Positions 1 to 61,751 of a stretch of DNA of 64,000 bases are shown here, piece by piece. Under the pieces are notes generated by a model. That model ran no database searches. It saw only the letters and a list, made by a program, of their open reading frames with translations, and had not been told where the DNA came from. Origin of the DNA: Saprospiraceae bacterium (lineage in GTDB: Bacteria > Bacteroidota > Bacteroidia > Chitinophagales > Saprospiraceae); assembly GCA_020631355.1 (NCBI GenBank), contig JAHDHL010000014.1, forward strand, positions 1 to 64,000, written 5' to 3'. Position 1 is the stretch's first letter. Each line of letters starts with the position of its first letter. The translations under genes and the position numbers were made by a program.

Positions 1-522
1 AAAATCATGTACTCACTCGGTTGTTCCAATGAATGGCAGGAAATCTGGTCCGATAGTGGTGCATCACTTGCAACTGCTTCCCCAAGTACATCCCTATATT
101 TACCGAATCCCCAGTCTGACTGGGAAAATAAGATGATGGGCATCAATACGGAAGGATTCAACTTCATCCGGATTGCATTCGTCAATATTTCAGGTAGGGG
201 TAACAATCTTTTCTTGGATAATATCAATATTCAAGGCTCGATGTCCATTGTATCCAATGAAAATATCAGCTCTTTGGATTATTTGAATATATCACCTAAT
301 CCAAGTAAGGGATGGCTGAATTTGGATATCTCCTTTAGTCAGATAGAGGATTATTCGATAGTCATCCATGATGCGGTAGGTAGAATGTCTTATTCTCAAA
401 ATCATTCAGGAAATCGTTTGAATGAAAGTATGGACATATCTCAACTGTCCAATGGCGTGTATTTCATTAGCATTATCTCTGGAAATGAGTCCATAACCAG
501 AAAATTCATACTAGCCCAATAA
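1..522 (+). CDS. M43-type secreted metalloprotease paralogue, C-terminal part only (5' end outside window)
   Basis: The reading frame is open from base 1, so the ATG at 7 is an internal methionine and the gene begins before the window. The visible 173 residues match the last quarter of the next five proteins: the end of the jelly-roll module (RIAFVNISGRGNNLFLDNIN) and a type A T9SS sorting domain beginning near ISPNPSKGW and ending in a basic, hydrophobic strand (ITRKFILAQ). The product is therefore most likely a secreted protease cleaved or anchored at the outer membrane by the type IX system. The catalytic domain is not visible, so protease identity is inferred from the paralogues. The next gene starts 26 bases downstream with no hairpin between them, so the two are probably cotranscribed. 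Confidence 0.85.
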   Translation, partial: KIMYSLGCSNEWQEIWSDSGASLATASPSTSLYLPNPQSDWENKMMGINTEGFNFIRIAFVNISGRGNNLFLDNINIQGSMSIVSNENISSLDYLNISPNPSKGWLNLDISFSQIEDYSIVIHDAVGRMSYSQNHSGNRLNESMDISQLSNGVYFISIISGNESITRKFILAQ

Positions 523-548
523 ACGAATTCAATCAACACAGAAAATAA

Positions 549-2741
549 ATGACCATGCGGATATTTTACTTCCTCACTTTCCTTACAATTATCCTCTGCA
601 CGGAGTTGGCATCAGGGCAACATGTACAACGTTGTCATGCAACTGAGATTCATGATGAAACATACGTTCAAGACGCGGATTACAGGCATTGGTATGATAC
701 GAGAATGGTAGAATTAGATGCTATCAGAACATCTACAGTGAATAATGCTGAGCGATTTGATTGTATCAATCCGATACTTATTCCTGTAGCAGTTCATTAC
801 GAGGGTGTGACAAATCAATCCATGTCTTGCTTGACCAATCTGGCTTTAGCCCAATTGGAAGTGATGAATGAAGCATTCTCTGCCTCTAATCCTGATATTT
901 CTGCATTCAATGCTGTCGTGGATCAGACGGAGATGACCATAGATCAGTTGGCGCAAGAGGGAGCTTGTATAGAGTTTTGTTTGGCCGATGCGGATCATCC
1001 TGCGGGATTCGGACTGAATGATGGTGATTATGCCATCACAATCAATGAGGATTATGTAGCTAATAATAACTTCCCCAATTTCACTAATGGAATATGGGCG
1101 GGGTATCTGAATATTTTCGTAACTGAAGGTACTGGAGTATTGGGTTATTCCCCATTATATGGTAATGCCAATGGTTCAGGAATTGTTATAGAGGCTTGTG
1201 TTTTTGGCACAACTTCTACTGCATGTGGTAATGGAATTGGTCCGGATGGGAACTGCCTGTTTTCACAGTATAACACAGGTAGAACATCTGTTCATGAAGC
1301 AGGACACTATTTGGGATTGAATCACCTCTGGGGCCCAGGAAATCAGGGTACAGGAAGTTGTAGCACAGATGATGGACTACCTGATACACCTAACTCTGAA
1401 TCAGAGAATTTTGGTTGCCCTATCATTGGTTCTTCTTCTTGTGGTTCAGCTGACATGTTCATGAATTATATGGATTATGCCAATGACGAGTGCATGTACA
1501 TGTTCTCTGAGATGCAGGCACAATTGATGTATAATTCTGCAAGCTCCATTTGGAATACACAATCGGTCAAGTGTAGTAGTTCGATAACTATCAATGATGC
1601 ATCCATCGCTAATATTGTATTCCCAGCTAATAACTCTTGTGGGTCTTCGGTTGCACCTATAGTACTGTTGAGGAATGCGGGTGCGAATACATTGACGAAT
1701 GTTGAAATCAATTATAGTGCAGGAGCCGCAGGATCCAATACGTTCAACTGGACAGGTAGCTTGCAACAGAACGAATTTGAGACCCTTACATTGCCATCAA
1801 TTGCTATTCCGAGTACGAATTATACCTTAGTGGTTTCGACTGCCAATCCAAATGGCATGGCGGATGAGAATCCTACTAATGATTCAAAATCTGAACCACT
1901 TGCAGTGCTTGAGGGTGTGGGTTTGCCATTCACAGAGGATGTGGAGGATTTCTCACAGCCATTCCCTGCCCAAGGAATCATCATAGACAATATTGATAAT
2001 GATAATTTCACATGGGATAGGAGACCAGGAGCTTCAGCATATGGGAATGGGGTTTATTCCATTTATTTCAATAATTTCGATGCGACAAGTGGTGTAGGAA
2101 ATGAAGATTGGTTCATTCTTCCTGAAACAGATGCTTCTGGCTTCAATTCAGTTAATTTATCCTTTGACTTGGCTTATGCTTATTTTTCAAGTGGAACGGA
2201 TATCAGGGAAGACCAACTGAAAATCATGTATTCTTTGGGTTGTACGGATACTTGGCAAGAAGCTTGGTTGGATGGTGGAACATCACTCGCTACAACTTCT
2301 CCTAGTGCATCATTCTATTTACCTAATGCCCAGAATGACTGGGTAAACAAAACAATCGGAATCAATACGGATGGCTTTGATTTTATTAGGATTGCATTCG
2401 TCAATATTTCAGGTAATGGCAATAATCTTTATATGGATAATATCAATATCCAAGGATCTACTGCTATCGTCTCCAACAACGAAATCGAATCCCTGTCCAA
2501 GTTTGACATATCACCGAATCCATCACAAGGATACCTGAATGTGAATGTGGAATTTAAGCAACACAAGGAATTCGAAATCCTGATTCATGATATCATGGGT
2601 AGACAATTGTATTTCAGAAAACAAACTGCTGCCATATCCAATGAGCAATTGGATTTGAACGAGTTTGCGAATGGAGTGTATATGATTAGTATTCGCTCCG
2701 GTAATCAGATAATAACGGAGAAGTTTATATTGAATAAGTAA
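549..2741 (+). CDS. Secreted M43-type zinc metalloprotease with T9SS sorting domain (array copy A)
   Basis: The protein is a 730-residue secreted metalloprotease of the pappalysin/cytophagalysin (M43) type. It starts with a signal peptide ending near residue 23. The catalytic domain holds the zinc motif HEAGHYLGLNH at 249-259 and the Met-turn MNYMDY at 305-310. An Ig-like/CARDB-like module follows (about 350-450), then a jelly-roll module of the 'choice-of-anchor' type (about 458-635, ending in MDNINIQGS) and a type A T9SS sorting domain (about 650-730). A second ATG two codons downstream (555) is an equally good start. The final 200 or so bases are identical to those of the next copy. It lies in a co-directional array of paralogues, and substrate specificity cannot be read from the sequence. 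Confidence 0.9.
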   Translation: MTMRIFYFLTFLTIILCTELASGQHVQRCHATEIHDETYVQDADYRHWYDTRMVELDAIRTSTVNNAERFDCINPILIPVAVHYEGVTNQSMSCLTNLALAQLEVMNEAFSASNPDISAFNAVVDQTEMTIDQLAQEGACIEFCLADADHPAGFGLNDGDYAITINEDYVANNNFPNFTNGIWAGYLNIFVTEGTGVLGYSPLYGNANGSGIVIEACVFGTTSTACGNGIGPDGNCLFSQYNTGRTSVHEAGHYLGLNHLWGPGNQGTGSCSTDDGLPDTPNSESENFGCPIIGSSSCGSADMFMNYMDYANDECMYMFSEMQAQLMYNSASSIWNTQSVKCSSSITINDASIANIVFPANNSCGSSVAPIVLLRNAGANTLTNVEINYSAGAAGSNTFNWTGSLQQNEFETLTLPSIAIPSTNYTLVVSTANPNGMADENPTNDSKSEPLAVLEGVGLPFTEDVEDFSQPFPAQGIIIDNIDNDNFTWDRRPGASAYGNGVYSIYFNNFDATSGVGNEDWFILPETDASGFNSVNLSFDLAYAYFSSGTDIREDQLKIMYSLGCTDTWQEAWLDGGTSLATTSPSASFYLPNAQNDWVNKTIGINTDGFDFIRIAFVNISGNGNNLYMDNINIQGSTAIVSNNEIESLSKFDISPNPSQGYLNVNVEFKQHKEFEILIHDIMGRQLYFRKQTAAISNEQLDLNEFANGVYMISIRSGNQIITEKFILNK
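2517..2733 (+). repeat. 217-bp identical tract, copy 1 (partner 4851-5067)
   Basis: These 217 bases encode most of the sorting domain of array copy A and match 4851-5067 in copy B base for base, including third codon positions. The flanking DNA differs: CCG versus CCT just upstream, and AAT versus AGT just before the stop. Upstream the two genes are only moderately similar. This pattern fits recent gene conversion. Confidence 0.93.
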
Positions 2742-2811
2742 GATGTCTTAATTTTGGAAACAAGTGTTTAGACAGCTAACTATTTTAATATAAAATATAT
2801 CTTATAATCAT

Positions 2812-2843
2812 AACAGCCTATATTTGTAGAAGTATAGGTTGTT
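2812..2843 (+). terminator. Intergenic hairpin, family member 1
   Basis: The arms AACAGCCTATA and TATAGGTTGTT pair over 11 bases with one G-T wobble, then TTTTGATTT follows. It lies between array copies A and B and probably ends transcription of A. The left arm also carries TATATTTG (2819-2826), which matches the Bacteroidota -7 promoter box, so the element may instead serve copy B. Related hairpins lie at 5120 and 7428. Confidence 0.6.
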
Positions 2844-2873
2844 TTGATTTCTGTTGACGACAAAAATATACCC

Positions 2874-5075
2874 ATGAATAACAACAGCACCATAAGTACA
2901 ATAGTATTTTTAATTCTCATTTTGGTTTCATGGCGACCATTGAATGCACAGTCACCTTGTTATACAGATGAGCTTCACCAAGAACGGTACGATATTAACC
3001 CAGAATATCGCCATGATTTTGATGTTAGGATGCAAAAAAGGAGGTCGCTACTTGAATCGACTCAGAATCAGGATAGATTCTTTTGCGTGGATCCTATTAT
3101 CGTTCCCGTTGCCGTACATTATAATGGGGTTACGAGCCAATCACTGAGTTGTCTAACCGATTTGGCTCTTTCCCAGATAGAGTTATTAAACAAGGATTTC
3201 TCTGCCACTAATGATGAAATTTCAAATTTCACAAATGATATTTTTGGTACAGATATAGAACCATCATTTTTGGCTGCAGAAGGAGCATGTATCCAATTTT
3301 GCTTGGCTGATGCTGATCATCCACCTCAATCTGGTCTTGCCGAGGGGGATTATGCTATTACCGTTAATGCGGATTATATAGCGGATGGATCATATCTATA
3401 TTCCGATCCCATGTGGGCTGGTTACATGAACATCGTTGTACCCAATGATTTATTTGATGTTTATGGTTTTACAGAAATATTATTACCAGCGGATGGTAGT
3501 ACCATAGTGGTCAGTAGTTGTGTATGGGGAAGTGGTGATATTGAATGCGGTGATGGATTCGGTTCGGGTGAAAGTCCGTTTGGAAATTGTTTTTATACTC
3601 CTCCAGATTACACTTATGGAAAAACGACCACGCATGAAATCGGCCATTTTTTAGGACTTCATCATACTTGGGCTTCAGAATTTGGTGCTGGTTGCAATTA
3701 TGACGATGGTTTTACGGACACACCTGATACGGACTCTCCTGCATTCCAGTGTCCGATAAATGACGCATCCTGTGGCAGTGATGACATGTATATGAATTTT
3801 ATGGATTACGCAGATGACGAATGCCGTTATATGTTCTCGGAACAACAGGCTACTTTCATGTATAACAGGGCAAGTGAAATATGGAGTACGACGACTACAA
3901 AATGTAGTAGTACATTTACTGTGAATGATGCGAGTATACAAGATATTCTATTTCCGGTCAATACTGTATGTGGTTCGACTGTCGCACCTATAATCAGGCT
4001 GAAAAATGAAGGTTCTGCTGATTTGATTTCTGCTGATATACAATACGAGGTAATTGGCGGAGGTTCTGGAATGTTCTCATGGTCTGGTAACTTATCAGAG
4101 AATGAGAGTGAAGTCGTTTCGCTACCTCCTGTTGCTAGTTTAATGAATGATTTTACACTATCCATCCAAACTGTTAATCCGAATGGAGTGCAGGATGAGA
4201 ATGTGTTGAATGATATTATTGAAAAGAATCTCGTGGTAGTCGAGGGTGTAAATTTACCTTTCACTGAGGATGTGGAGGATTTCTCCCAACCATTTCCTGC
4301 TCAGGGTATCACTATATTCAGTGAGGTGAATGATGGTTTCGAATGGGAAAAGAAAATAGGCGTTTCTGGTTACGGTAATGGTGTGTATTCTATTCTATTT
4401 GATAATTTTTCTGTAGGAAATCCTAATCTTGGTAATAGTGATTGGTTTATCTTGCCTGAAATGGATATAACAGGTTTTAATTCAGCAAAGCTGAATTTTG
4501 ATTTGGCTTACACTTATTATGAGAGTGGTTCCCAAGTGCGTAGTGATGAGTTGAGGATTATGTATGCCTTGGGATGTTCCGGTGATTGGCAGGAAATCTG
4601 GTCAGCTAATGGAACAGATTTGGCAACAGCTTCACCAAGGGCAACCATTTATCAGCCTGAGAGTAGCAGCGATTGGGTATCCCAAGAGATAGGAATCAAT
4701 ACCGATGGTTCAGATTATGTAAGGATTGCTTTCGTGAATATTACTGGAAAAGGAAATTCACTTTATTTGGACAACATAAATGTCGAAGGTTCCATGAATA
4801 TCGTTTCCACCAATGAAATTGAATCCTTGTCCAAATTCGATATTGCACCTAATCCATCACAAGGATACCTGAATGTGAATGTGGAATTTAAGCAACACAA
4901 GGAATTCGAAATCCTGATTCATGATATCATGGGTAGACAATTGTATTTCAGAAAACAAACTGCTGCCATATCCAATGAGCAATTGGATTTGAACGAGTTT
5001 GCGAATGGAGTGTATATGATTAGTATTCGCTCCGGTAATCAGATAATAACGGAGAAGTTTATATTGAGTAAGTAA
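2874..5075 (+). CDS. Secreted M43-type zinc metalloprotease with T9SS sorting domain (array copy B)
   Basis: This is a paralogue of its neighbours, with a signal peptide, the zinc motif HEIGHFLGLHH starting at residue 254, and a Met-turn of the form MNFMDY. The same Ig-like module, jelly-roll module (beginning LPFTEDVEDF) and type A T9SS domain follow. I chose the ATG at 2874 because it gives MNNNSTIS, matching the start of copy C (MNNNITL), and begins directly before the signal peptide. The frame stays open upstream to a TTG at 2844, which would add ten residues without signal-peptide character. Copy B resembles copies C and D more than A over its catalytic half, yet its sorting domain is identical to that of A. 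Confidence 0.9.
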   Translation: MNNNSTISTIVFLILILVSWRPLNAQSPCYTDELHQERYDINPEYRHDFDVRMQKRRSLLESTQNQDRFFCVDPIIVPVAVHYNGVTSQSLSCLTDLALSQIELLNKDFSATNDEISNFTNDIFGTDIEPSFLAAEGACIQFCLADADHPPQSGLAEGDYAITVNADYIADGSYLYSDPMWAGYMNIVVPNDLFDVYGFTEILLPADGSTIVVSSCVWGSGDIECGDGFGSGESPFGNCFYTPPDYTYGKTTTHEIGHFLGLHHTWASEFGAGCNYDDGFTDTPDTDSPAFQCPINDASCGSDDMYMNFMDYADDECRYMFSEQQATFMYNRASEIWSTTTTKCSSTFTVNDASIQDILFPVNTVCGSTVAPIIRLKNEGSADLISADIQYEVIGGGSGMFSWSGNLSENESEVVSLPPVASLMNDFTLSIQTVNPNGVQDENVLNDIIEKNLVVVEGVNLPFTEDVEDFSQPFPAQGITIFSEVNDGFEWEKKIGVSGYGNGVYSILFDNFSVGNPNLGNSDWFILPEMDITGFNSAKLNFDLAYTYYESGSQVRSDELRIMYALGCSGDWQEIWSANGTDLATASPRATIYQPESSSDWVSQEIGINTDGSDYVRIAFVNITGKGNSLYLDNINVEGSMNIVSTNEIESLSKFDIAPNPSQGYLNVNVEFKQHKEFEILIHDIMGRQLYFRKQTAAISNEQLDLNEFANGVYMISIRSGNQIITEKFILSK
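4851..5067 (+). repeat. 217-bp identical tract, copy 2 (partner 2517-2733)
   Basis: This is the copy B side of the identical 217-base tract shared with copy A. It covers codons from the conserved Asn-Pro-Ser of the sorting domain to three codons before the stop. Confidence 0.93.
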
Positions 5076-5119
5076 GGGTTTTCCTGAACTCATTTCTCTT
5101 AGTACTTACATTTATGATG

Positions 5120-5154
5120 AAAACACCCTATATTGCGAAAATATAGGGTGTTTT
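5120..5154 (+). terminator. Intergenic hairpin, family member 2
   Basis: A perfect 15-bp stem (AAAACACCCTATATT with AATATAGGGTGTTTT) encloses a five-base loop and ends in TTTTGTATTA. It lies between array copies B and C and shares the core ACACCCTATA/TATAGGGTGT with the hairpins at 2812 and 7428. It fits an intrinsic terminator with a short U tract. Confidence 0.7.
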
Positions 5155-5199
5155 GTATTAAAAGTACATTAGACCATCATACCATAATTTAAATATCCC

Positions 5200-7383
5200 A
5201 TGAACAACAACATTACCCTTTGGGGAATCCTCTTATTATTACTAATTCCTTTCTTTCCTCTAAGTTCTCAAATACCTTGCGGAACTTCACAACATCATGC
5301 TGAATTATACAGCAGTGATCCCAATTATCGTCATGATTTTGATGTCAGGATGCAACATAGGAACACACTCCTAGAAAATGCACTCAGTCAGGACAGGTTA
5401 TTTTGTGCCAATCCAATAATAGTACCTGTGGCGGTTCATTATAGAGGTGTTACTGGGCAATCCCTGAACTGTTTGACTGATCTGGCCCTATTTCAGATTG
5501 ACGAATTGAACAAGGAATTTTCTGCTACGAATGATGAGATTTCCAATTTTAGCAGTGATATCGCAAACACGGATATTAGTCCTACATCACTTGCAGCAGA
5601 GGGTACATGTATCCAGTTCTGTTTAGCTGATGCGGATCATCCACCTGGATCGGGTTTAACTGATGGGGAATTTGCCATTACCATCAATGCCGGGTATACC
5701 TATTTTTTTACTGATCCTATGTGGGCAGGATATATGAATATTGTCGTTGCCAGTGATTTACTAGAATTTAATGGTTATGCGGAGATTATGGATTCTGCCG
5801 ATGGTAGTTCGGTTGTAGTAAGCAGTTGCGTCTGGGGCAGGGGTGATGTCGAATGCGGAGGTAGTTTCGGGTCAGGTACTAGTCCATTTGGAGAATGTCA
5901 ATATATTCCACCCAGCCATACCACCAGTAAGACTACAACTCATGAAATAGGCCACTTTCTTGGATTATTCCATATTTGGGAATCAGCAAATGGTTCCGGT
6001 TGTGATAACGATGACGGATTTTCAGACACTCCTGACGCTGGTTTTCCATCCTACGGCTGTCCTCTAATGAGTGAAGCTTGTGGTAGTAATAACATGTTCA
6101 TGAATTATATGGATTATTCCTTTGATGAATGTCGCTACATGTTCTCGGAACAACAAGCAATATTCCTTAACAGTAGGGCAAGTGAGTTTTGGGGCACTAC
6201 GAGTACCAAGTGTAGTGGCACTTTTTCTGAGAATGATGCGAGTATTCAGGAAATCGTATTTCCTGTGAATTCAACATGTGGGACAAGTGTCGCCCCAATT
6301 ATCCGATTAGAGAATGCGGGGTCCTTGGTATTGTCATCTGTGGATATCTCTTATTCTGTGGTAGGTGGCGGAAGCGGTATGTATACATGGTCTGGTAGCT
6401 TACCTGCAGGACAATCAACCATTGTTAATTTGCCTGCTATTGCCAGTACGGGTAACGATTTTACATTAATCATACAAACATCAAGTCCTAATGGAACTAG
6501 TGATGATTACATCTATAATGATGATATAGAAACGGATATCACAATTATTGAGGGAATAGAAACACCATTTTATGAAGATCTCGAAGATTTCAATCAACCC
6601 TTTCCAGCTCAGGGAGCAACCATTTTTAGTACAGTAGATGATGATTATGATTGGGAAAAGAAAATAGGTGTCTCAAGTTATGATAACGGTTTTTACAGTA
6701 TTCATTTTAATAATTTTAGTGTAGGTAACTCAAGTATAGGTAATGATGATTGGTTCTTATTTCCAGAAATGGATATAACAGGATACAATTCTGTAAACCT
6801 TTCATTCGATATGGCTTATACTTATTATATGAGTGGGTCGCAAACGCGCAGTGACGAATTCAAGGTCATGTATTCATTAGGTTGTTCGAATGAATGGCAG
6901 GAGGTCTGGTATGCCAATGGAACTGATTGGGCTACGGCTCCTCCTAGTAGTTCCATCTATCAGCCAAGTGGAGAAAATGACTGGGTTACCAAAGATTTCG
7001 CAATCAATACGAATGGTTCCGATTTTATAAGGATTGCCTTTGTGAACATTACAGGAAAAGGAAATTCCCTTTACTTGGATAACATCAACATCCAAGGTTC
7101 GACAGCTATAGTCTCCACCAATGAAATCGAATCCTTGTCCCAATTCGATATATCACCGAATCCATCACAAGGATACTTGAATGTGAACGTAGAATTCGAA
7201 CAAAACAAACAGTTCGAAATCCTGATACATGATGTGATGGGTAGGGAATTGTATTACAGAAAACAAATTGCTGCCATATCCAATGAGCAGTTGGATTTGA
7301 GTACATTCTCGAATGGTGTTTATCTGATAAGTATCCGAAGTGGTAATCAGATCGTTACGGAGAAAATTGTTCTGAATAAGTAA
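5200..7383 (+). CDS. Secreted M43-type zinc metalloprotease with T9SS sorting domain (array copy C)
   Basis: This 727-residue paralogue begins with a hydrophobic signal peptide (LWGILLLLLIPFFPL) and a cleavage site near residue 24. It has the zinc motif HEIGHFLGLFH from residue 248 and a Met-turn MNYMDY. Next come the Ig-like module, the jelly-roll module and a type A sorting domain ending in VTEKIVLNK. The third zinc ligand of the HExxHxxGxxH motif is intact although the residue before it is Phe rather than Asn. The last 330 bases up to and including the stop codon are identical to copy D. It is flanked on both sides by related hairpins, so it may be transcribed on its own. Confidence 0.9.
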   Translation: MNNNITLWGILLLLLIPFFPLSSQIPCGTSQHHAELYSSDPNYRHDFDVRMQHRNTLLENALSQDRLFCANPIIVPVAVHYRGVTGQSLNCLTDLALFQIDELNKEFSATNDEISNFSSDIANTDISPTSLAAEGTCIQFCLADADHPPGSGLTDGEFAITINAGYTYFFTDPMWAGYMNIVVASDLLEFNGYAEIMDSADGSSVVVSSCVWGRGDVECGGSFGSGTSPFGECQYIPPSHTTSKTTTHEIGHFLGLFHIWESANGSGCDNDDGFSDTPDAGFPSYGCPLMSEACGSNNMFMNYMDYSFDECRYMFSEQQAIFLNSRASEFWGTTSTKCSGTFSENDASIQEIVFPVNSTCGTSVAPIIRLENAGSLVLSSVDISYSVVGGGSGMYTWSGSLPAGQSTIVNLPAIASTGNDFTLIIQTSSPNGTSDDYIYNDDIETDITIIEGIETPFYEDLEDFNQPFPAQGATIFSTVDDDYDWEKKIGVSSYDNGFYSIHFNNFSVGNSSIGNDDWFLFPEMDITGYNSVNLSFDMAYTYYMSGSQTRSDEFKVMYSLGCSNEWQEVWYANGTDWATAPPSSSIYQPSGENDWVTKDFAINTNGSDFIRIAFVNITGKGNSLYLDNINIQGSTAIVSTNEIESLSQFDISPNPSQGYLNVNVEFEQNKQFEILIHDVMGRELYYRKQIAAISNEQLDLSTFSNGVYLISIRSGNQIVTEKIVLNK
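7054..7383 (+). repeat. 330-bp identical tract, copy 1 (partner 9378-9707)
   Basis: The last 330 bases of array copy C, through its stop codon, match the last 330 bases of copy D exactly. Identity begins within the Gly-Lys-Gly-Asn turn of the jelly-roll module and stops at the base after the stop codon. The genes diverge upstream and downstream, as expected from gene conversion. Confidence 0.93.
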
Positions 7384-7427
7384 TCAATATTGAAATTCCT
7401 GATAAGGAAACACTCATGTTTTTAATT

Positions 7428-7460
7428 AGAACACTCTATACTTAAAGTATAGGGTGTTCT
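7428..7460 (+). terminator. Intergenic hairpin, family member 3
   Basis: The arms AGAACACTCTATA and TATAGGGTGTTCT pair over 13 bases with one wobble and a short loop. It lies between copies C and D and shares its core with the hairpins at 2812 and 5120. No long U tract follows, so termination is likely but not certain. Confidence 0.6.
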
Positions 7461-7505
7461 AAGTTTCAGGATTACCATTCAGTTCTAAAATAATAAAATG
7501 TATCC

Positions 7506-9707
7506 ATGCTCAATTTTTATAACAACGCTTACTTATCCTCCATCCTTTTAATTTTATTATTTCTTAATCCTATTTTTTCTCAGGTTCCCTGTGGAACTAC
7601 AGAAATTCATGACAATCGATATGTAATAGATGCAAATTACCGCCACGATTTCGATGTCAGAATGCAGCATCGGAAAACAATATTGGAGACAACGTTGAGT
7701 CAGGACAGATTCATTTGCAACGAACCTATAATAGTACCAGTTGCAGTACATTATAACGGTGTCACAACCCAGACATTGGATTGTTTGACAGACCTTGCAC
7801 TTTTTCAGATTGACCAGTTGAATAAGGAATTTTCTGCTACGAATGATGAAATTTCCAATTTCTATGAAGATATTATTGGCACTGATATAGACCCTGAGTC
7901 ATTAGCAGAAGAAGGAACTTGTATTCAATTTTGTTTGGCTGATGTCAATCATCCACCACTATCAGGTATTAGCGAGGGTGAATATGCAATAACTGTGAAT
8001 GAAAGTTTTGTAGCTAACGGTAGCTATCTATTCACACACCCCATGTGGGCGGGTTATCTGAATATCGTTGTTCCTAATGATTTATTCGAATATTTGGGAT
8101 ATACCCAACTTTTACAACCAGCTGATGGAAGTACGATTGTAGTCAGTAGCTGTGTTTGGGGTAGAGGAGGAGCAGAATGTGGTGATGGATTCGGTTCAGG
8201 CCAAACGCCATTTGGTGAATGTACTTATATACCTCCGAGTCATACATACAATAAAACAACCAGCCACGAAGTAGGCCATTTTCTTGGATTGAATCACGTT
8301 TGGGAATCAGAGGAGGGTAGTGGATGTGATTATGATGACGGCTTTACAGATACTCCTAATGCAAGTGGTCCCACCTATGGTTGTCCGAATAATAACAATT
8401 CTTGTTGGAGTGATGATATGCAAATGAATTATATGGATTATTCAGATGATGAATGCCGATATATGTTTTCAGAACAACAAGCAACGTTTATGTATAATAG
8501 AGCTAGTGAGCTGTGGGGTGTTTTCTCATCCAAGTGTAGTAGTAATCTAACTGTAAATGATGCCAGCGTAAGAAATATAATATTCCCATTAAATACTTCT
8601 TGTACTTCTGATGTTGCTCCTGTAGTACTTTTGGAAAACGTAGGTACGACAAATTTAACATCAGTAGAATTTTCTTATTCTGTGGATGGAGGTGAGTCTG
8701 GTACCTATGTTTGGACAGGCAATTTGTCAATGAATGAAACTGAAATAGTCTATTTGCCAATGATTGCGGGTTTGTCAGGGAATTATACCTTGAATATTGA
8801 AACCTCTAATCCGAATGGTCTCTTGGACGATAACCCTTTTAATGACGCAAAGGATAAGAGTGTGTCAATAGTAGATGGTATAAGTTTGCCATTTATGGAG
8901 GACAATGAAGATTTCTTACAACCCTTTCCTGCACAGGGAGCCTTGACAACCAGCATTATTGGTGATGCTCATGATTGGATTAAAAAGTCAGGTATCTCAG
9001 GTTATAATGAAGGGCTTTATTGCATTCATTTTGATAATTTTAATGTAGAAGATAAAAATAAAGGCAATGATGATTGGTTTGTTTTACCGGATTTAAATGT
9101 TACTGAATTCAATTCAATTAACTTGACCTTTGATTTGGCTTACACCTATTTTCAGAATGAATCGGAGATACGTGATGATGAATTAAGCATTATGTATTCA
9201 CTTGGTTGTTCTGGGGCATGGGAAGAAATATGGTCAAAAAATGGTTCTGATTTAGCTACCGTACCTCCTATGGCTTCCATATATGAACCTGAATCAGTTG
9301 GTGATTGGGTAACAAAGGAAATGGGTATCAATACCAATGGTTCTGATTATATCCGTATTGCTTTCGTCAATAAAACCGGAAAAGGAAATTCCCTTTACTT
9401 GGATAACATCAACATCCAAGGTTCGACAGCTATAGTCTCCACCAATGAAATCGAATCCTTGTCCCAATTCGATATATCACCGAATCCATCACAAGGATAC
9501 TTGAATGTGAACGTAGAATTCGAACAAAACAAACAGTTCGAAATCCTGATACATGATGTGATGGGTAGGGAATTGTATTACAGAAAACAAATTGCTGCCA
9601 TATCCAATGAGCAGTTGGATTTGAGTACATTCTCGAATGGTGTTTATCTGATAAGTATCCGAAGTGGTAATCAGATCGTTACGGAGAAAATTGTTCTGAA
9701 TAAGTAA
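7506..9707 (+). CDS. Secreted M43-type zinc metalloprotease with T9SS sorting domain (array copy D)
   Basis: This 733-residue paralogue has a signal peptide (SSILLILLFLNPIFSQ) and the zinc motif HEVGHFLGLNH from residue 254. A Met-turn MNYMDY is followed by the Ig-like, jelly-roll and type A T9SS modules seen in its neighbours. The ATG at 7506 is the first in frame and directly precedes the signal peptide. Its 3' end is identical to that of copy C over 330 bases, whereas its catalytic half differs from C at many positions (for instance CTYIPPSHTYNKT against CQYIPPSHTTSKT). The protein is expected outside the cell or on its surface; its substrates are unknown. Confidence 0.9.
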   Translation: MLNFYNNAYLSSILLILLFLNPIFSQVPCGTTEIHDNRYVIDANYRHDFDVRMQHRKTILETTLSQDRFICNEPIIVPVAVHYNGVTTQTLDCLTDLALFQIDQLNKEFSATNDEISNFYEDIIGTDIDPESLAEEGTCIQFCLADVNHPPLSGISEGEYAITVNESFVANGSYLFTHPMWAGYLNIVVPNDLFEYLGYTQLLQPADGSTIVVSSCVWGRGGAECGDGFGSGQTPFGECTYIPPSHTYNKTTSHEVGHFLGLNHVWESEEGSGCDYDDGFTDTPNASGPTYGCPNNNNSCWSDDMQMNYMDYSDDECRYMFSEQQATFMYNRASELWGVFSSKCSSNLTVNDASVRNIIFPLNTSCTSDVAPVVLLENVGTTNLTSVEFSYSVDGGESGTYVWTGNLSMNETEIVYLPMIAGLSGNYTLNIETSNPNGLLDDNPFNDAKDKSVSIVDGISLPFMEDNEDFLQPFPAQGALTTSIIGDAHDWIKKSGISGYNEGLYCIHFDNFNVEDKNKGNDDWFVLPDLNVTEFNSINLTFDLAYTYFQNESEIRDDELSIMYSLGCSGAWEEIWSKNGSDLATVPPMASIYEPESVGDWVTKEMGINTNGSDYIRIAFVNKTGKGNSLYLDNINIQGSTAIVSTNEIESLSQFDISPNPSQGYLNVNVEFEQNKQFEILIHDVMGRELYYRKQIAAISNEQLDLSTFSNGVYLISIRSGNQIVTEKIVLNK
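9378..9707 (+). repeat. 330-bp identical tract, copy 2 (partner 7054-7383)
   Basis: This is the copy D side of the 330-base identical tract shared with copy C. It ends exactly at the stop codon. Confidence 0.93.
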
Positions 9708-9815
9708 GTGTATTGAAAGTTGTAAATCAAATCTTTACTGAATGAAATAGGAATTGAATATTTCAGAATCATCTACATTATAACTTAAAATCAGGCAATT
9801 GATACCTAAACCCCG

Positions 9816-9868
9816 TATATTTAAGTTTCCGGTTATTCATATATAGAATACCCGGAAACTTAAATATA
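9816..9868. promoter_or_regulatory. 17-bp perfect inverted repeat just upstream of array copy E
   Basis: TATATTTAAGTTTCCGG (9816-9832) is repeated inverted at 9852-9868 around a 19-base loop that itself contains TATTC and GAATA. The right arm ends 18 bases before the ATG of copy E and no U tract follows it. It differs in sequence from the other three array hairpins. It may be a terminator for copy D, an operator, or a leader structure of copy E; the sequence does not decide. Confidence 0.6.
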
Positions 9869-9886
9869 TACCAAAAAACAATTCCC

Positions 9887-12097
9887 ATGATTAACAACAT
9901 TGGCCTCACCCTAGGCTATATAACCATCTTCTTGATTTGTTTCATTAACCATTCTTGGTCCCAATCCTCAGTTTGTTACACGGATGTGTTGCATGAACAG
10001 AACTACGCCAGCAACGAAGAATACAGACGTGATTATGATGAACGAATGGAAGCCCGTTCGGAGCTTCTTGACGCTGTTAAGCTAGGTGCTAGACTAGATT
10101 GCGAATCTCCCATTATGATTCCTGTCGCAGTGCATTATGACAATGTAGGAAATCAGACATTATCCTGTTTGACTGAGTTGGCATTATCCCAGATTGACAG
10201 ACTTAATCAAGATTTCTCATCGAATAATATTGATATATTCGATTATTATAATGCTACGGAAGGCACAAGACTTACAGTGGAACAACTGGCTGAGAATGGT
10301 GCTTGTATCCAATTCTGTTTGGCAGATAAGGACCATCCTTCAGGAATGGGTTTGGAAGATGGGGATTATGCCATCACAATCAATCAGGGTTATACCACGC
10401 CCGGTGGTTGGAATAGTCAGATACCTAGTGTTTGGGCTGGATATTTGAATATGAAAGTCATAGATGATATGCCTACGAACGTATTGGGATATTCTCCTGT
10501 ATTTGGTGATCCCAATGAAAGAGGGTTGGTGGTTTCCAGTTGTGTTTGGGGAACTCCTGAGTATGGATGTGGTAGCGGAATAGGTTCTGGGTATAGTAGT
10601 AATTGTAGTGTGAATGACAATTATGAATTAGGACGAATTGCCACACATGAAGTTGGACACTATCTTGGCCTCCAACATCCTTGGGGTTGTAATTATATTA
10701 TGAATTCATCATGTTGTAATTTCGATGATGGAATAGATGATACACCCAATACCGATGCTCCTTGGTTTGGTTGCCCTGAGAAAGGTTCTGAATCATGTGA
10801 AAGTGATGACATGTACATGAATTATATGGATTATACTGGCGATGCCTGTGCCTACATGTTCACAGAACAACAATCAGCTTTGATGTATGCCCGGGCTGGG
10901 GAACTGTGGAGTGAGGATTGCCCCAAATGCAGTTCGACACAAAAAAATCATGATGCTAGAATCCTTGGATTCGATTACCCGAAATACAGGGTATGTGGAG
11001 ATGTGGTATCGCCCAGAGTCATATTAAACAATGGTGGTTCTGAAATATTGACTTCCGTCGAGATTCACTATACCCTCGGGAATGGCCCTGTCAACACCTA
11101 CACTTGGAATGGATCTTTGAATCAGCATGAATCAGAAGTAGTAACACTTCCAAATGCTACTCAACCAGATGGTAGTTTTTACATATTATCGGTATATACC
11201 TCCATGCCGAATGGCTTTAATGACCAAAATCCATCCAATGACCGTCAGGATCGAAAAGTATTATCCGAATTCGGAGCAGCATCACCTTTCGTGGAAGATA
11301 TGGAAGTATTTGGAGCAGCATTCCCGACCCAAGGTATATTGATAGATAATAAGGACGATGATGAATATACTTGGGAGAGAAAGCCTGGTGCCTCGGCCTT
11401 TGGCAATGGGGTTTATGGATTACATATGAATAATTTTCTCGCTTTTGAAAGTACTGGGAATGAGGATTGGTTCATCTTGCCTGAGATAGCTACGTCAACT
11501 TATCCCTCGGTGGAACTATCCTATGATTTGGCATATGCTTATTTTTTGGTGAGTTCTACAGAGAGGATTGATATGATGAAAATTATGTACTCATTGGATT
11601 GCTCTGGCGAATGGCAGGAGCTATGGTCTGGTTCAGGAGCTGAACTATCCACTACGGCTCCAATGGATTCACCTTTTGTCCCATCAATAAATGATTGGGA
11701 TTCAAAGATGCATTTCATTGATACATACGGTGCTGATTTTGTCAGGATTGCTTTCGTTAATATATCAGGTAGTGGGAATAATCTATATCTGGATAATATC
11801 AATGTAACGGGTTCGAATACGATTGTTTCAAATCAGGAAATCAATTCTTTGTCCGAGTTTAATATTTCACCGAACCCAAGTACGGGCTACTTGGATTTAT
11901 CCATAGAATTTGAGAAACAGAATAATTATCAAATCAGGATTTTTGATGCCGTTGGAAAAATGGTGCATCAACAAGGAGGAAGTAATATTCAATTGAATGA
12001 AAGAATTGACTTATCACATCTTCCAAATGGGATATACTTCATCAACTTAATGGTAGCTGACCAAATGATAACCAAGAAATTAATCTTATCCCAATAG
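9887..12097 (+). CDS. Secreted M43-type zinc metalloprotease with T9SS sorting domain (array copy E)
   Basis: This is the last and most divergent array member, with 736 residues. It shows a signal peptide, the zinc motif HEVGHYLGLQH from residue 254, and a Cys-rich stretch after it (NSSCCNFDDG). A Met-turn MNYMDY is followed by the Ig-like and jelly-roll modules and a type A sorting domain (ISPNPSTGYLDL near residue 660, ending ITKKLILSQ). Its sorting domain resembles that of the truncated first gene rather than those of copies A to D, so it has not been drawn into the gene-converted pairs. A strong hairpin ends the array just downstream, where it meets a convergent gene. Confidence 0.9.
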   Translation: MINNIGLTLGYITIFLICFINHSWSQSSVCYTDVLHEQNYASNEEYRRDYDERMEARSELLDAVKLGARLDCESPIMIPVAVHYDNVGNQTLSCLTELALSQIDRLNQDFSSNNIDIFDYYNATEGTRLTVEQLAENGACIQFCLADKDHPSGMGLEDGDYAITINQGYTTPGGWNSQIPSVWAGYLNMKVIDDMPTNVLGYSPVFGDPNERGLVVSSCVWGTPEYGCGSGIGSGYSSNCSVNDNYELGRIATHEVGHYLGLQHPWGCNYIMNSSCCNFDDGIDDTPNTDAPWFGCPEKGSESCESDDMYMNYMDYTGDACAYMFTEQQSALMYARAGELWSEDCPKCSSTQKNHDARILGFDYPKYRVCGDVVSPRVILNNGGSEILTSVEIHYTLGNGPVNTYTWNGSLNQHESEVVTLPNATQPDGSFYILSVYTSMPNGFNDQNPSNDRQDRKVLSEFGAASPFVEDMEVFGAAFPTQGILIDNKDDDEYTWERKPGASAFGNGVYGLHMNNFLAFESTGNEDWFILPEIATSTYPSVELSYDLAYAYFLVSSTERIDMMKIMYSLDCSGEWQELWSGSGAELSTTAPMDSPFVPSINDWDSKMHFIDTYGADFVRIAFVNISGSGNNLYLDNINVTGSNTIVSNQEINSLSEFNISPNPSTGYLDLSIEFEKQNNYQIRIFDAVGKMVHQQGGSNIQLNERIDLSHLPNGIYFINLMVADQMITKKLILSQ

Positions 12098-12120: not shown

Positions 12121-12154
12121 GAAAGCCCGAATAGAATTATCTATTTGGGCTTTC
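12121..12154. terminator. Bidirectional terminator between array copy E and the M23 gene
   Basis: GAAAGCCCGAATAG pairs with CTATTTGGGCTTTC over 14 bases with one wobble around a six-base loop. It lies between convergent genes and overlaps the last codons of the minus-strand M23 gene. It could serve both strands. Confidence 0.75.
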
Positions 12155-12799
12155 TCCATTGATGAACAAATGTTGCTCCACAAAATCTGAAGGATTGATA
12201 TAGCCAGTGGTATCCATTTTGTATCCGCTTCCGATTCCCATAAAAATATCATCCCTGACTTCAAAGTGAAGATGTGATTTGTACAAACCATCGGCATTGC
12301 CAATCTTTCCTATGATTTGTCCTCGTTTGACCCAATCATGCTTACGGATATGCATTTCACTACAATGCGCATACAAGGAAATAATGAATGGTCGTTCCTT
12401 GATATTCGTTTCATGAATGATGGCAATCACCTTGCCCCATCCACTCCAACGCCCCAAATCCGAGGCAAATAATGTATATCCATTTCCAATGGAATGAATA
12501 TCGTCACCATAATCCGTATCGCCTCCACCCACACCGTTCAAATCATCTCCGAGGTGATAATTTTTCTTGAAAGGTTGGGCATTATAATATCCCTTGCCAT
12601 CGGGAAATCCTACGGGATGTCCGAAACCCTCCCCAGCACTAAATGTAGGATGCTCCTTGAAAAGAGATATATAGGATTGAATCGTAGAATGCCTATAACT
12701 CTCCTGAAATGAACCAAGGCCCATTTCAGATGTGCGCTCTCCGTTTTGACAGGAGAGAAAAAGAATGGAGAATAATATGCAGTTGAATAATGGTTTCAT
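12137..12799 (-). CDS. M23-family (LytM-type) peptidase lipoprotein
   Basis: The product is a probable zinc endopeptidase of the M23 family, which cleaves peptide crosslinks in peptidoglycan. The two metal-binding motifs are present: HLGDD (HxxxD) and, near the C-terminus, SHLHFEVRD (HxH). Between them lies the usual beta-sheet core with YAHCSEMHI and GQIIGKIGNADG. I chose the ATG at 12799 because it gives MKPLFNCILFSILFLSC, a lipoprotein signal with Cys at the lipobox. The longer frame to 12847 would start inside the terminator of the upstream gene. It may remodel the cell wall, and it separates the metalloprotease array from the macroglobulin gene. Confidence 0.85.
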   Translation of the reverse strand: MKPLFNCILFSILFLSCQNGERTSEMGLGSFQESYRHSTIQSYISLFKEHPTFSAGEGFGHPVGFPDGKGYYNAQPFKKNYHLGDDLNGVGGGDTDYGDDIHSIGNGYTLFASDLGRWSGWGKVIAIIHETNIKERPFIISLYAHCSEMHIRKHDWVKRGQIIGKIGNADGLYKSHLHFEVRDDIFMGIGSGYKMDTTGYINPSDFVEQHLFINGESPNR

Positions 12800-12814
12800 A
12801 TAAGGAAACGAAAA

Positions 12815-12840
12815 GGGTTCACCCAAACTTGGATGAACCC
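12815..12840 (-). terminator. Terminator of the alpha-2-macroglobulin gene
   Basis: The stem GGGTTCA/TGAACCC is extended by CC/GG inside the loop and is followed on the minus strand by TTTTCGTTTCC. It lies 9 bases past the macroglobulin stop and before the chosen start of the M23 gene. Confidence 0.75.
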
Positions 12841-12849
12841 CGATCAAAT

Positions 12850-15800
12850 TTATTTTACCTCAATCCTTACACCCTCGGAATGGGAAGTGAATTCAGGAGC
12901 ATACATACATTGTATCGTTGTGATTCCATTCGAAAAATCTCCTTTATGTTGTACCATTAGTGGATACTCGAAAACATAAGTACCCTTTGGAAGACGATCA
13001 AAGAAGAAATTCGTACTGGCATCCCTTGTGGATTCATAATAGCCAAGTCCCCCTTGCCATTTATATTGGCTGAGTACATTGACGGGTTCGAGTCCAGAAG
13101 CCCTCATGTCTTTCATGTGGACATATTCCATATCTCGATCAACTCGCAGTTCAATCCTTACCATTAGCTTGTCCCCTGGTGTAATCTGTTCCTGTGATAT
13201 GGGTTCCATGAATTTACCCTTGGGGCCATCCTTTTCAAGAAACAGCTGTTTCTTCAAAGTCAGTGGTGTTTCCTCGAATGTGGTAATCTTATCCAAATCC
13301 TCCAAATATTGCCAATAAACAGCACCCCACGCAACCACATCATTAGGATTCGTCACCTTTACTTGTCCCATTTCCGGACGTACTTCATCCTTTTCGTATT
13401 TCACTTTGAAATAACCGGTACCTGCCTCTTTTTCCATCGCAGCAACATCCACAGGTTGCCCACCCATTTCTATCTGTATATCCTGGTCCTGCATCAGCCA
13501 ATTGTCACCTCTCATCAAAAGGGCATATACTGCGGCAGCTGTACCCTTTGTGGTTTTCCAATTATTGGTCTGTTTGTTCTTCAGTAGCCAAACCTTTAGG
13601 TCGTCCACTGCTTGAACATCCTGGGCTACTTCGTCAAATGCCTCAATCATCAGTGCATGTGTCTCGATGGGTAATTGGTACCAGTAATATCCGGTATTAT
13701 ATTTCCAGTACATCCCCATTTCCTCATGATTCAAAGAACGTTCCTTGAGTGATTTCATAATATCATTGGTCGTACGCTCGTGACCACCCTTACGGTGTAG
13801 GGCCAATGCAATCATACCTTCCTGATACATGCCCTTATTCAACCAGAATTTCTGGGCTTGACCAATGTAATAGGTAGCTGCCTTATTAGCAGCTGAATTC
13901 ATATCAATATCATTAAAGAATGAACGGGCATACAGATAATGGATAATTATTGAATTCAGATTGTCATCTTCCCATTTCGCATGTCCTTTCTTGACCCTCT
14001 TTTCCAGTCGTTCATATTCCTCAACCATTCTGTCATCGCAATAGACAACAGCCTTTCTCATCATCATATTCACCTTGTCATCCTTGCGGATATCCTTGAC
14101 TCCTAATCTATCCAGATGCCCCATACCCTCAACGAGGTATTGTGTAATGTACCAGCTATCCCTGCCTCCCGGGAACCATGAAAAACCACCATTACCCAAT
14201 TGCCTTTCCGTAATTTTGGCTATAGCCTTATCTTGTTCCTTGGCCATTTTATTCAAATCGAATAACAAGCCGATATTCTTTTTCTGCTGCGCCTCATTCT
14301 GAGCATCCATAACCCAGGGTGTGTCCTCAAGAATAGCATATTTCAATTCCTGATTCTTGGATAAATTGGATTGTAGGGCATCCGTATTCTTCCATTTTTC
14401 GAATACCTTTTGGATATTGGGCTGGCTATTGGCAACGGTACTAGCCAATGAATTGGCATAATATCTACTGAATATCTGCTCGGTACAATCATATGGATAT
14501 TCCATAAGATAGGGTAGGGATTGGACAGCATACCATGCAGGATTGGAAGTGAATTCCAACGTCATCTGATGGTGTTGCAATGTATTGGAACTACCCGAAT
14601 TCATCAGTTTGCTGAAAGTGAAATCCTTACTTTGTTTTCCCCTTACGGGTAATGGCAACGTTTCAGTGACCATCATTCTATTGGTTAGAATGGGTAGTGC
14701 ATTTTCTTCTCCGTCTGAGAAATCCCCTGACTTTGCAATTACCCTATGTGTAATTGCATTCACTTTTCCCATGGGAATATCTAATGTCCATTTCAAAGGA
14801 GCGGATTGTCCGGCTTTAGCATCGAAACTTACCTGATTATTTTCATTGCCAAGTAACGCATCCACAGGCTCATTGGTAATGGCATCAAAAAGTTGTAATA
14901 CGGCACTACCAGCCATATTTTTTTCTGTTAGATTAGATACCTTGGCAGTGAATTCAATTCGATCCCCCTCCCTCATGAATCTAGGAGGATTGGGTACAAC
15001 CATCAAGTCCTTTTGTGTTACGACTTCTTTCTCCGTATAGGCTGTTTCCAAATCTTTCGTATGGGCAAATCCCATGAATTTCCATTTAGTCAATGCTTCA
15101 TTCATGGTGAATTTAATAATGATGTTTCCATCCTTATCAGTCTTCAAATGAGGGAAGAAGAAAACAGTTTCGTTCAGATTCGTCCGGACTTTTACGTCAT
15201 CAAAATCATCCGCATCATTCTTTTGCTCCTCAGATTTAACACCATTAGCCATCGTATTCAAATTCCCTGCAGGCAGACCCGTCTTCCTCATTTCTTCTGC
15301 TATTTTAGCTTTCTTCTTAGGTGAGGGTGGCGGTGGTGGTGGTGCTGCAGTTCTTGGAACCTCGGCTGCAACTGCCGTATCCATGACCATAGACTCTTCC
15401 ACGGCATAAGCTCCATAACTCCTATATGAGTATGAATTGATAGGGAAGCCAAACCATTGAAGGGATCGGTACTCCCTATATCTGACATTAGGTATAGCAT
15501 GTTGGAATTTATTCCCGTGTCGATAGTTTGAATGGCTGACACCGAAGTGATTGATTCTTAATCCAAGGCTAGGGTAGTGCCCGGGATAGAATTGGTTCGG
15601 CCAGTTATTGGAAGCGAATTGATCAAGGGAAGCATCATACATTCCTGCTAGCATTTCGGCGGTGACCATGTCTCCCTTAGGACCCGAAATCTTGATTTGC
15701 CATTCCTCATCCTGACCGGGATACAATTTGTCCCTGAATGTTCCATATTCGACTGATAATTCCTTATTGGACCAGGGTACAGCAATATTGATTGTTTTGG

Positions 15801-18800
15801 ATTCGGTACGGTTGTCATGCACGAATTGTAAGTGATAGCTCAAGCCTCCCCTGTGTTTTTCTTCGATGGGGATTTCCAATGATTTCAACCCTTTCGGTGA
15901 AATCCATTCTCTTTTGACAATCTTATCCTGATGTTCGATTTCAAACAATACCTTAGCATCCCTGTGAGCTGAACCGATATGGATGACGGCCTTTTCCCCG
16001 GGTTCCAATTTGTTCTTCTCTATATTATGGAAGAATGCATGATGGTCCATGGACTTTTTATCCTTAACATCAAATACTGAGAAATACTTAGTGACCTCAA
16101 CCACTTTTCCATATTTGTCCTTGGATTTCAATTCAAGCTTATATGAGCCTGCTGCAAAATCCGAGGGACTAAGATTGATGGATTGGGATGATTCAGTGTC
16201 GAACTTCTGATCTATGATTTTCTTACCCTGCAGATAATTCCTTTTGAGGTTTTCCTCTTTGTAGGGACGATTGGGGAATGTCTCCTTATATTCTTCCTTG
16301 GTTAGAACGAATTCATCTGGAACCGACCAAAACCTATCAATGACAAGACCATTGGGTATCAACTGGTGGATGGTGACTTGTCCTTTTGATTTTTCGTATT
16401 CACCATTCAGATTTTTCGAACTGATTTCAAATGATTCCAATTGGTTTCTATTAATGGACTCATCCACACTGATGTCAATATCCAAGGCAATGGTTCCCAC
16501 ATTGACGGTAGTGGTACTATTACGGGTCTCGCCCGTAATATCCGTTATGGCCGCATTGATGGTGTAGGAGAATAGTGGATTGGATGCTGCATCAACTGAT
16601 TTATCTGGTATCGCATTGAATGAAATCTTGAATTGGCCCTTTTCATCCGTCGTTGTAGTACCATTGGTAATGATTTGGCTAGGAGAGGTAGGAAAACCTC
16701 TCCACCAATATCTCCAATAGGGGAAACGAGTGTTTCTAGTTACGGTATATTTGACTTTTGCGCCATCTATATTATTCCCGGCAAGGGCTTTGGCAAACCC
16801 ACTGACTGTCACTTCGTCTTCCAGTTTATAAGAAGATTTCACAGGGTCGAATTTGACTTCGAATTTGGGTCGTTTGTATTCTTCTACCCTAAGATATTGT
16901 CTTCCGATGTTATTACCACCATAATGAACCACGATGGACATTTGTCCAAGCATGCCAGTTTCAGGTGCCGTAAAAGTACCACTAACCGTACCATATTCAT
17001 TTGTAGTCAGATTGGTTTTTTTGATTTCTTGGTAATTGGCATCCAAGAAAGAAATTTCCAATTTCTTATTGGGTAGAATGCTTGGTAAACCTGTTTGACC
17101 ATTCATTAGCAGAGGCAATGCCTTATAGTATATTGTTTGCCCGGGACGATAAATGGCTCTATCCAAAAACATGTGATTATTGACATAATCCTTTTCTTCA
17201 TTTTTTCTTCTATAACCATAATGGGAATCACCAAAATCCTGATAATCCTTTCCATTCCTTAACTTGATGAAAATGGAATTGTTCTTGGTTTTGGAACTGG
17301 CAAAGCCATCCTTACTGGTCAGTTCTGTCTTAACCAATTTGTAATCATAACCCCTTTTTTTATAATTATAATCCCTTTGGAAAAATTCAACCGAAACATT
17401 AGTTAGGGGATATCCATTTTTTCTATTTACAACAAAGATTTCGACTTCACCAGTCAGATTATTATTGCGGCTGTGGTAAGCTAAGTTTGAAATTGTGGTT
17501 TTTGCAAATGTTACCGATCCTGCCTTATCATCAAACTTCTCATTAGTGGAAACCAAAACATAGTGGGTTCCAAAATCCAAACCTTTGATTTTATATTCAA
17601 TGGAATGCGGATTATAATCCAAATCATTGGGGAGATCGATTTGTCCCTTATCTACAATAGTTCGTTGATTCATATAAGGCAGGAAATCATCATATTTTTT
17701 ACGCTTTAGAATCTTTTCCTCCTCCACGCTGAGTTTGATTACCTTATACCAAACTTTATTTTCGTTTTGGTATTGAATACTGAAAGGAAAAGCTTCCTCA
17801 GAAACATTGACCTTTTCTACTTCTATGCTCAAATTCCTCTGCATGATCCTAGCCCATAACATGGCACATAATTGGGCACCGTATGTATCCCTTTTTTCCT
17901 GTTTTACCCTGGTACAAATTTCCAGCGCTTTCTTTTTATGCCATTTGAATTTTTCTTGACCAGAATTGAACTTGAATGATTCATCATAATAAAACTGGGC
18001 GATATGATAGTCTATTTCGGCACTTGATGGATGGGCTGCATACTTTTTAGACAGTTTTTGTAATGCATTGTAATACAATTCATCCTTGTTGGAAAGGATA
18101 CTGTTCTGTCTGACATATTTAAGACGTTTGAGGTCTGCATCAATCAGTGCTTCAGGATTTTCATCATTCTTATGAAAATCGAGGATATTTTGGAAAAGTA
18201 ATAGATTAATGTACTTATTATTCTCTGTATCCGCTGTCTTGAATGCCGTATTGATAAAAGCAGAATGGTCAGATAAGGCAGATTCCTGGTCAATATAAAA
18301 TACATTCGCAGGTTCTGTCAAGTATGTCCTTTCATTCATAAAATGATCTATGGCCCTATGCATCAGAAAATCATAGAGCGTGGGCCTCAAGCCGTCCTGG
18401 AATTTTCTCTTTTTGTTGGGAGCTTGCGTTATGGCATCGAAGTCCCTGATAATCACCCTTTGAACATCCTTGTTACCAACGGAAGCAAGATAGAGGCGAC
18501 TGATTTCCTCATTCAATTTTTCTATGGACCAAGTACTGATGTCATCGGGCTTATATTCTCCTGTATCTGTGCGGTCATTGAATTTCCAAATATTCTGACT
18601 CAGATAGTTCTGGTACAATTCCGCTACTATGGATTGAAGGATTTCCTTACTCGGAAAGGACGAAGATTCGATTTCCTTTTCCATATTATGAATGGCCTTT
18701 ACATACCCATTTTCCTCTAGCTGTCCGATATATTTCCCCTTATACATCAGGGTCTTAATCACTTGGGATGGATTATTGTCTGCCTTGGCCCTGAGATAAA

Positions 18801-44253: not shown

Positions 44254-44307
44254 GATTATTATTTGAATTAATAGATAGGATCTGCTATGCTTGATTAAAA
44301 GCATTAA

Positions 44308-51377: not shown

Positions 51378-61751
<10,374 letters not shown>

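Follow-up and report, generated by a model that had tools for sequence, protein, structure and literature searches.

Identical tails in neighbouring T9SS protease genes of a Saprospiraceae bacterium, best explained by gene conversion

The C-terminal tails of T9SS cargo proteins are described as necessary and sufficient for export (PMC10202324). Type A tails are reported to be recognised by their structure, not their sequence, via one shuttle (PMC12618676), and to be cleaved off by PorU (PMC4804311). Like the array described below, the KLIKK proteases of Tannerella forsythia are T9SS proteases with nearly identical tails on different enzyme parts; their genes lie in two clusters, and three metallo- and three serine proteases carry the one tail (PMC4404884, PMC5445135). 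In the passages that treat these tails, the authors call the near-identity unusual and leave its origin open (PMC4404884). A second parallel is the gingipain/hemagglutinin rearrangement of Porphyromonas gingivalis, for which a reshuffling of T9SS protease parts by recombination is reported and gene conversion is invoked (PMC5266723). Copying between paralogues is also described for bacterial multigene families such as rRNA operons, PE_PGRS genes and release factors (PMC8022953, PMC1762029, PMC4530459). Here we describe a tandem array of M43 metalloprotease genes in a Saprospiraceae bacterium, in which two pairs of neighbours carry identical DNA in their T9SS tails.

Layout of the protease array

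The window, the whole 64,000-nt stretch that we analysed, is the first 64 kb of a contig of 121,901 bases (C100) in a 6.16-Mb genome of 142 contigs. Bases 1-12097 are taken up by a tandem series of genes on the + strand, the first truncated (Z) and the next five complete (A to E):

1..522, + strand: gene Z, 3' part only; frame open from base 1, 5' end cut by the contig start
549..2741, + strand: gene A, M43 metalloprotease with T9SS tail, 730 aa (open reading frame, profile matches, motifs)
2742..2843, + strand: A-B spacer, outside the shared tract; by eye unlike the other spacers except for a related hairpin
2874..5075, + strand: gene B, M43 metalloprotease with T9SS tail, 733 aa from ATG (open reading frame, profile matches, motifs)
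5200..7383, + strand: gene C, M43 metalloprotease with T9SS tail, 727 aa (open reading frame, profile matches, motifs)
7506..9707, + strand: gene D, M43 metalloprotease with T9SS tail, 733 aa (open reading frame, profile matches, motifs)
9887..12097, + strand: gene E, M43 metalloprotease, 736 aa, whose tail forms a separate type (open reading frame, profile matches, motifs, tail comparison)

For gene B the list of open reading frames begins at a TTG (2844), and we used the ATG at 2874 instead. The Pfam family PF05572 scores above its cut-off in A to E; Z is truncated. The signature of M43 (pappalysin) proteases is HExxHxxGxxH plus a Met-turn. The zinc motif is intact and the Met-turn present in A to E, gene A containing HEAGHYLGLNH and MNYMDY, and likewise in gene Y, an additional complete copy that lies at the end of contig C28 and is followed, by eye, by the start of another array gene. 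A C-terminal Por_Secre_tail domain scores above the curated cut-off of both profile libraries in Z and A to E, and the tail of Z (E 7.7e-14) is a T9SS type A tail of the type found in Y and Z. By this domain, A to E are predicted T9SS type A cargo, and what is described for the family suggests that they would be exported and lose their tails to PorU (PMC4804311).

From the sequence layout, the array probably runs Y, Z, A to E with a gap inside Z. The assembly breaks within this gene (C28:1-135 and window 1-60); neither edge is an exact repeat elsewhere in the genome, and a protein search of the genome brought up no fitting body piece. By eye, the spacers after A, B and C (2742-2843, 5076-5199 and 7384-7505) carry related terminator-like hairpins and are otherwise different. 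The closest named relatives of the array genes are from Bacteroidota, many of them Saprospiraceae and Chitinophagales. Eight same-genus genomes, searched at E 1e-60, gave one match each in four and none in the other four; since these genomes are fragmented and two of the four matches reach a contig end, the array is likely, not certainly, absent from them. Outside Bacteroidota, two Massilia genomes (L099, L102) hold M43 relatives at 33-34%, for which transfer is possible.

Several other features of the window are recorded here in their own right. A bacterial alpha-2-macroglobulin gene adjoins the protease array in opposite orientation, beside an M23 peptidase (12137-19017). On the - strand, 38965-44370 encodes a protein of 1801 aa that combines an array-related M43 protease (41%) with SprB repeats, PKD and its own T9SS tail; a similar long frame is found in a same-genus genome (G001), and the protein is perhaps an older single-copy relative of the array. 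A 3457-aa open frame (51378-61751, - strand) encodes a large repetitive protein, with 12 listed copies of a 300-nt reference at 53536-56955, spaced 240 or 480 nt apart; the remaining 11 copies are 63-69% like the reference.

Identical 3' ends in two pairs of neighbours

The original prediction was a tract of 217 identical bases at the ends of genes A and B. This identity is exact and maximal, and it has a longer twin in C and D that had been overlooked. Four putative conversion tracts result:

2517..2733, + strand: A copy, 217 nt, identical to 4851-5067
4851..5067, + strand: B copy, 217 nt, identical to 2517-2733
7054..7383, + strand: C copy, 330 nt, identical to 9378-9707; its last base is the end of the stop codon
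9378..9707, + strand: D copy, 330 nt, identical to 7054-7383

Beyond A/B and C/D, the window contains no other exact direct repeat of at least 40 nt with copies at least 300 nt apart, and no 40-mer recurs in inverted orientation. Both tracts terminate at the stop codon, that of A/B with a single A/G mismatch at 2734/5068 followed by identity through the stop codon. Their upstream ends differ: the A/B tract starts 9 nt inside the domain match (2517 vs 2508), the C/D tract 96 nt upstream of it (7054 vs 7150). The expectation that the tract would cover just the sorting domain thus holds for A/B and fails for C/D. Within each pair the copies are identical while the flanks differ, and the spacers were not copied along with the tails. 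Among Z and A to E, the longest exact run outside the tails is 27 nt.

The tails contrast sharply with the rest of the genes. Outside the tail domain, A and B have a DNA identity of 58.9% and a protein identity of 52.6%, against a DNA identity of 98.3% within it; the C and D bodies are 67% identical in DNA. Tail protein identity is 97.4% for A/B and 100% for C/D. It had been claimed that silent sites are included while the rest of both genes differs clearly, and the codons bear this out: identical synonymous codons number 71/73 in the A/B tail vs 142/323 in the body, and 76/76 vs 207/390 for C/D. At fourfold sites the bodies agree at 40/125 (A/B) and 62/157 (C/D). The tracts contain about 42 (A/B) and 69 (C/D) synonymous sites with zero differences, so that, by the rule of three, silent divergence within them is probably below ~7% and ~4%, respectively.

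Permutation of alignment columns came nowhere near these runs. For A/B, unbroken runs extend to 140 matching polymorphic sites (0/2000 permutations reach this, largest 17) and to 71 identical synonymous codons (0/5000, largest 21); for C/D, the corresponding runs are 201 sites (0/2000, largest 27) and 108 codons (0/5000, largest 30). Of the other 13 of the 15 pairs, a few gave weaker runs. C-E share 14 synonymous codons in the catalytic region (alignment columns 925-1008; 1/5000 permutations), which may reflect an early exchange beyond the tail or a coincidence given the 15 pairs compared. Y-E share a run of 13 synonymous codons (49/5000) and Y-D a run of 12 sites (27/2000), and in the tails A-C and A-D have runs of 14 sites (10/2000 and 20/2000). 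The identity is confined to the 3' ends in the two strong cases; given the weaker runs in C-E, Y-E and Y-D, this confinement to the tail is imperfect.

Such identity is not a general property of the domain. At the DNA level, the A/B tails are 18-20% different from the C/D tails, tail protein identity to A-D is 38% for E and 47-51% for Y or Z, and gene A shares 51% identity with a same-genus homologue (G003) along the gene as a whole, against 34% in the tail. Between tail types the tail domain is thus not conserved, being about as diverged as the bodies or more. In protein, Y and Z are an exception, with 82% identity in the tail and 66% in the body (about 96 compared body codons). Recent tail copying between these two is not supported, as fourfold sites agree at 10/22 in the tail vs 16/25 in those ~96 codons (p 0.25).

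Body and tail also disagree in their trees. In the body tree, computed without gene Z, A pairs with Y (99/99), and B, C and D are joined (100/100). AU tests reject a grouping of A with B for the body (p 2.6e-26) and of A with Y for the tail (p 3.9e-39, a group chosen after the identities had been seen). Grouping C with D in the body is not rejected (p 0.22), so their body and tail trees show no conflict and the C/D case rests on the identity contrast. Comparisons between the two pairs suggest an older exchange of one tail type among A to D: fourfold identity for A-C is 13/17 in the tail and 42/115 in the body (Fisher p 0.003), for B-C 11/16 and 54/163 (p 0.007), and the tail excess recurs in A-D (p 0.010) and B-D (p 0.012), the four comparisons not being independent. 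A simple B to A direction was attractive, as the A body groups with Y; we set it aside, as positions 2481-2516 suggest that an older exchange preceded the recent one.

T9SS tails elsewhere in the genome and in relatives

In the source genome, we scored 150 of 413 candidate tails; further tails exist, for example at window 28091-30646. Median identity is 28% over 11154 pairs of these 150 tails, with array-internal pairs left out, and among them the best tail DNA identity outside the array is 77%, none reaching 80%. Same-strand tail pairs within 6 kb outside the array reach 50% protein identity in 3/22 cases, from two clusters (C27, C119). The C27 pair is 51% identical in the body and 76% in the tail. 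In C119, the gene at 15215 resembles its neighbour at 16922 in its repeats (60% over 326 aa) and the gene at 19383 in its tail (65%, vs 24%); by eye, the part shared by 15215 and 19383 includes a fibronectin-like region.

Outside the array, tail identity minus body identity averages -0.04 in 9 near pairs (same strand, within 10 kb, body at least 90 bits; drawn from few clusters and not independent) vs -0.16 in 314 others (Mann-Whitney p 0.02). The tail exceeds the body by 0.10 in 2/9 near pairs vs 0/314 others (Fisher p 0.0007, with a cut-off chosen after looking). In 16 near pairs without related bodies, on either strand, there is no tail excess (mean 0.286). There is thus a modest tail excess between neighbours in this genome outside the array.

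Among 80 named loci, 74 contain tail genes (121 genes, 34 same-strand pairs), and an exact tail tract occurs in 1/34 pairs. This pair, from a groundwater Bacteroidetes MAG (L106), consists of neighbours with 45% identical bodies that share 126 nt exactly, from the tail end through the terminator; fourfold identity is 14/19 in the tail vs 28/69 in the body (p 0.018). Exact repeats are also found in L039 and L154, and those in L086 lie within a single gene.

We further inspected 20 regions of three genomes (G011, G024, G022), chosen by eye for closeness among the matches listed, with 52 tail genes and 39 same-strand pairs. Tails are at least 80% identical in DNA in 3/39, all from G011, a relative in the same family as the source genome. 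At L217 (G011:C140, 1283-4137), neighbouring FG-GAP proteins are 90% identical in DNA in the tail and 72% in the body; exact stretches are found towards either end, in the signal region and the tail, and also span the stop codon, and the middle differs. One of these bodies is closer in protein to a third copy (73% vs 67%), whose tail is 62%. At L214 (G011), an Omp28-like gene and a gene with thioredoxin-like matches below the Pfam cut-offs encode C-terminal halves that are 46% identical in protein, with the DNA match limited to the last 282 nt (84%). At L219 (G011:C32, 2-5506), an M36 fungalysin and an adjoining Kelch protein have a common PKD-Ig-tail block, 74% identical in DNA over 1182 nt. 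The silent-site tail excess is not significant in these three pairs (L217 p 0.58, L214 p 0.16, L219 p 0.18), so they are older or have a different history.

Probable gene conversion, its alternatives and known systems

Ectopic gene conversion of the 3' ends between neighbouring genes of the M43 array is by far the best explanation of these data, and we hold it with high confidence. The same reading had been put forward for A and B at the outset, and it is well supported by the silent sites, the permutation runs and the A/B tree conflict. We propose that neighbouring genes exchanged their 3' ends by homologous recombination, presumably of the RecA type, between direct repeats ~2.3 kb apart and without exchange of flanks. 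An older exchange would have given A the tail type of B, C and D, and the two recent ones (A/B and C/D) would have started within the T9SS type A domain or shortly upstream of it and extended as far as the stop codon, beyond which the genes are no longer homologous. The bodies seem too diverged to recombine often, with no exact run above 27 nt outside the tails. No perfect match in the array is longer than a copied tail, which would therefore continue to attract exchange; tails may thus remain good recombination substrates because copying keeps them alike.

Copying would be tolerated if every functional tail does the job and if the tail is removed after export, as in type A cargo that has been characterised. 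Given the structure-based recognition and PorU cleavage described above, a copied tail should leave the mature enzyme unchanged, and we read the tail as the part of the gene where copying is tolerated. This tolerance appears limited to tails of one genome, since a tail swap between P. gingivalis and T. forsythia is reported to have failed, indicating that tails are not freely interchangeable between species (PMC11285876). It had also been suggested that secretion signals are homogenised while catalytic parts diverge. As a description of the array this is apt; it does not extend to a need for matching signals, since a median identity of 28% among the scored tails implies that the export machine does not need identical ones.

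Had the secretion machine demanded this particular tail sequence, purifying selection might account for the identity, which does coincide with a domain of known export function. The identity, however, spans 71 and 108 consecutive synonymous codons, and tails in the same array differ widely (18-20% in DNA between A/B and C/D, 38% protein identity for E), as do the scored tails outside it; we consider selection of this kind exceedingly improbable. An assembly artefact, either a single consensus built from the reads of two distinct tails or a misplaced repeat, deserves consideration in a draft of 142 contigs with a contig edge within the array. A misjoin in a repeat swaps flanks and cannot make distant tails identical, and merging requires tails that are nearly identical beforehand, for which unconverted tails are too different. 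The frames are open, the flanks are distinct, and an exact tail tract is also found in another assembly, that of L106. An artefact is therefore very improbable, although merging of already very similar tails would exaggerate their identity, and that of A/B and C/D could be slightly exaggerated in this way.

Whole-gene tandem duplication, followed by body replacement or fast diversification, would make the shared tail a relic of the duplicated unit. The genes are indeed tandem paralogues, the L217 neighbours in G011 are near-identical near both ends and different in the middle, and recombination that swaps an entire body is conceivable. Selection on the protein is insufficient to explain the bodies, however, as their silent sites have diverged too (fourfold 40/125 and 62/157); the A body groups with Y, not B, and the spacers were not copied, which makes this history quite improbable. 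By argument, unequal crossover alone was rejected: it duplicates or deletes whole units and cannot give two bodies and two spacers around one tail. The tail might instead have come from another strain, by DNA uptake and ectopic recombination. One genome cannot distinguish a donor strain from a neighbour, and P. gingivalis is described as naturally competent, its surface proteins reportedly varying through allelic exchange (PMC5266723). Both recent pairs, however, are immediate neighbours in one array, for which an internal copy is simpler, and the scored tails outside the array have at most a short partial DNA match to the array tails; we regard a foreign donor as unlikely. As for donors within the genome, a distant tail was rejected, as besides B, C and D only short stretches match the A tail, and so was a donor among the 150 scored tails, none of which matches well outside the array.

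On the gene conversion explanation, the array is a case of partial gene conversion in a tandem family, a process well known among paralogues. Whether it reflects something broader is a separate matter. T9SS tails may be a shared recombining commons in Bacteroidota, in which clustered cargo genes repeatedly overwrite each other's tails so that tails follow neighbourhood, not descent, and in which the exchange sometimes extends to adjoining Ig/PKD domains or the terminator and also takes place between genes with different N-terminal domains. A general sharing of tails is plausible rather than shown, and we put this whole reading forward only tentatively, because silent sites give no significant result in any of the three G011 pairs. 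If true, it would explain one nearly identical tail on different enzymes, as in the KLIKK proteases, and effectors could be re-addressed in one step; tail sequence would be unusable for tracing the descent of T9SS cargo in gene clusters. Re-addressing of neighbouring enzymes by copying is conceivable because swapped tails can change cargo destination: in Flavobacterium johnsoniae, a replaced tail is reported to have kept secretion and changed the destination, by engineering and not naturally (PMC12618676).

In the open-access literature, the scope of our search (subscription papers lay outside it), we found no report of gene conversion of a T9SS sorting domain. In the available text of PMC5714932, PMC5808330 and PMC6767994, 'gene conversion' appears in other senses or references only, as does 'concerted evolution' in that of PMC7323717. 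The described systems differ from the array in several respects. Judged by title and abstract start, the reports on rRNA operons, PE_PGRS genes and release factors involve no secretion sorting domain (PMC8022953, PMC1762029, PMC4530459). The gingipain rearrangements, as far as described in the text available, concern adhesin and catalytic variants between strains, not the copying of a sorting domain between neighbours of one genome (PMC5266723). The KLIKK tail is carried by different protease families, and the available text on it reports no DNA-level test for copying, whereas here the bodies are homologous and the pairs with recent identity are neighbours; the KLIKK tail ending is absent from the array, whose tails end in ILNK, ILSK, VLNK, ILSQ, ILAQ or ILAK. 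The exchange proposed here offers a testable origin for the near-identical KLIKK tails of Tannerella (PMC4404884).
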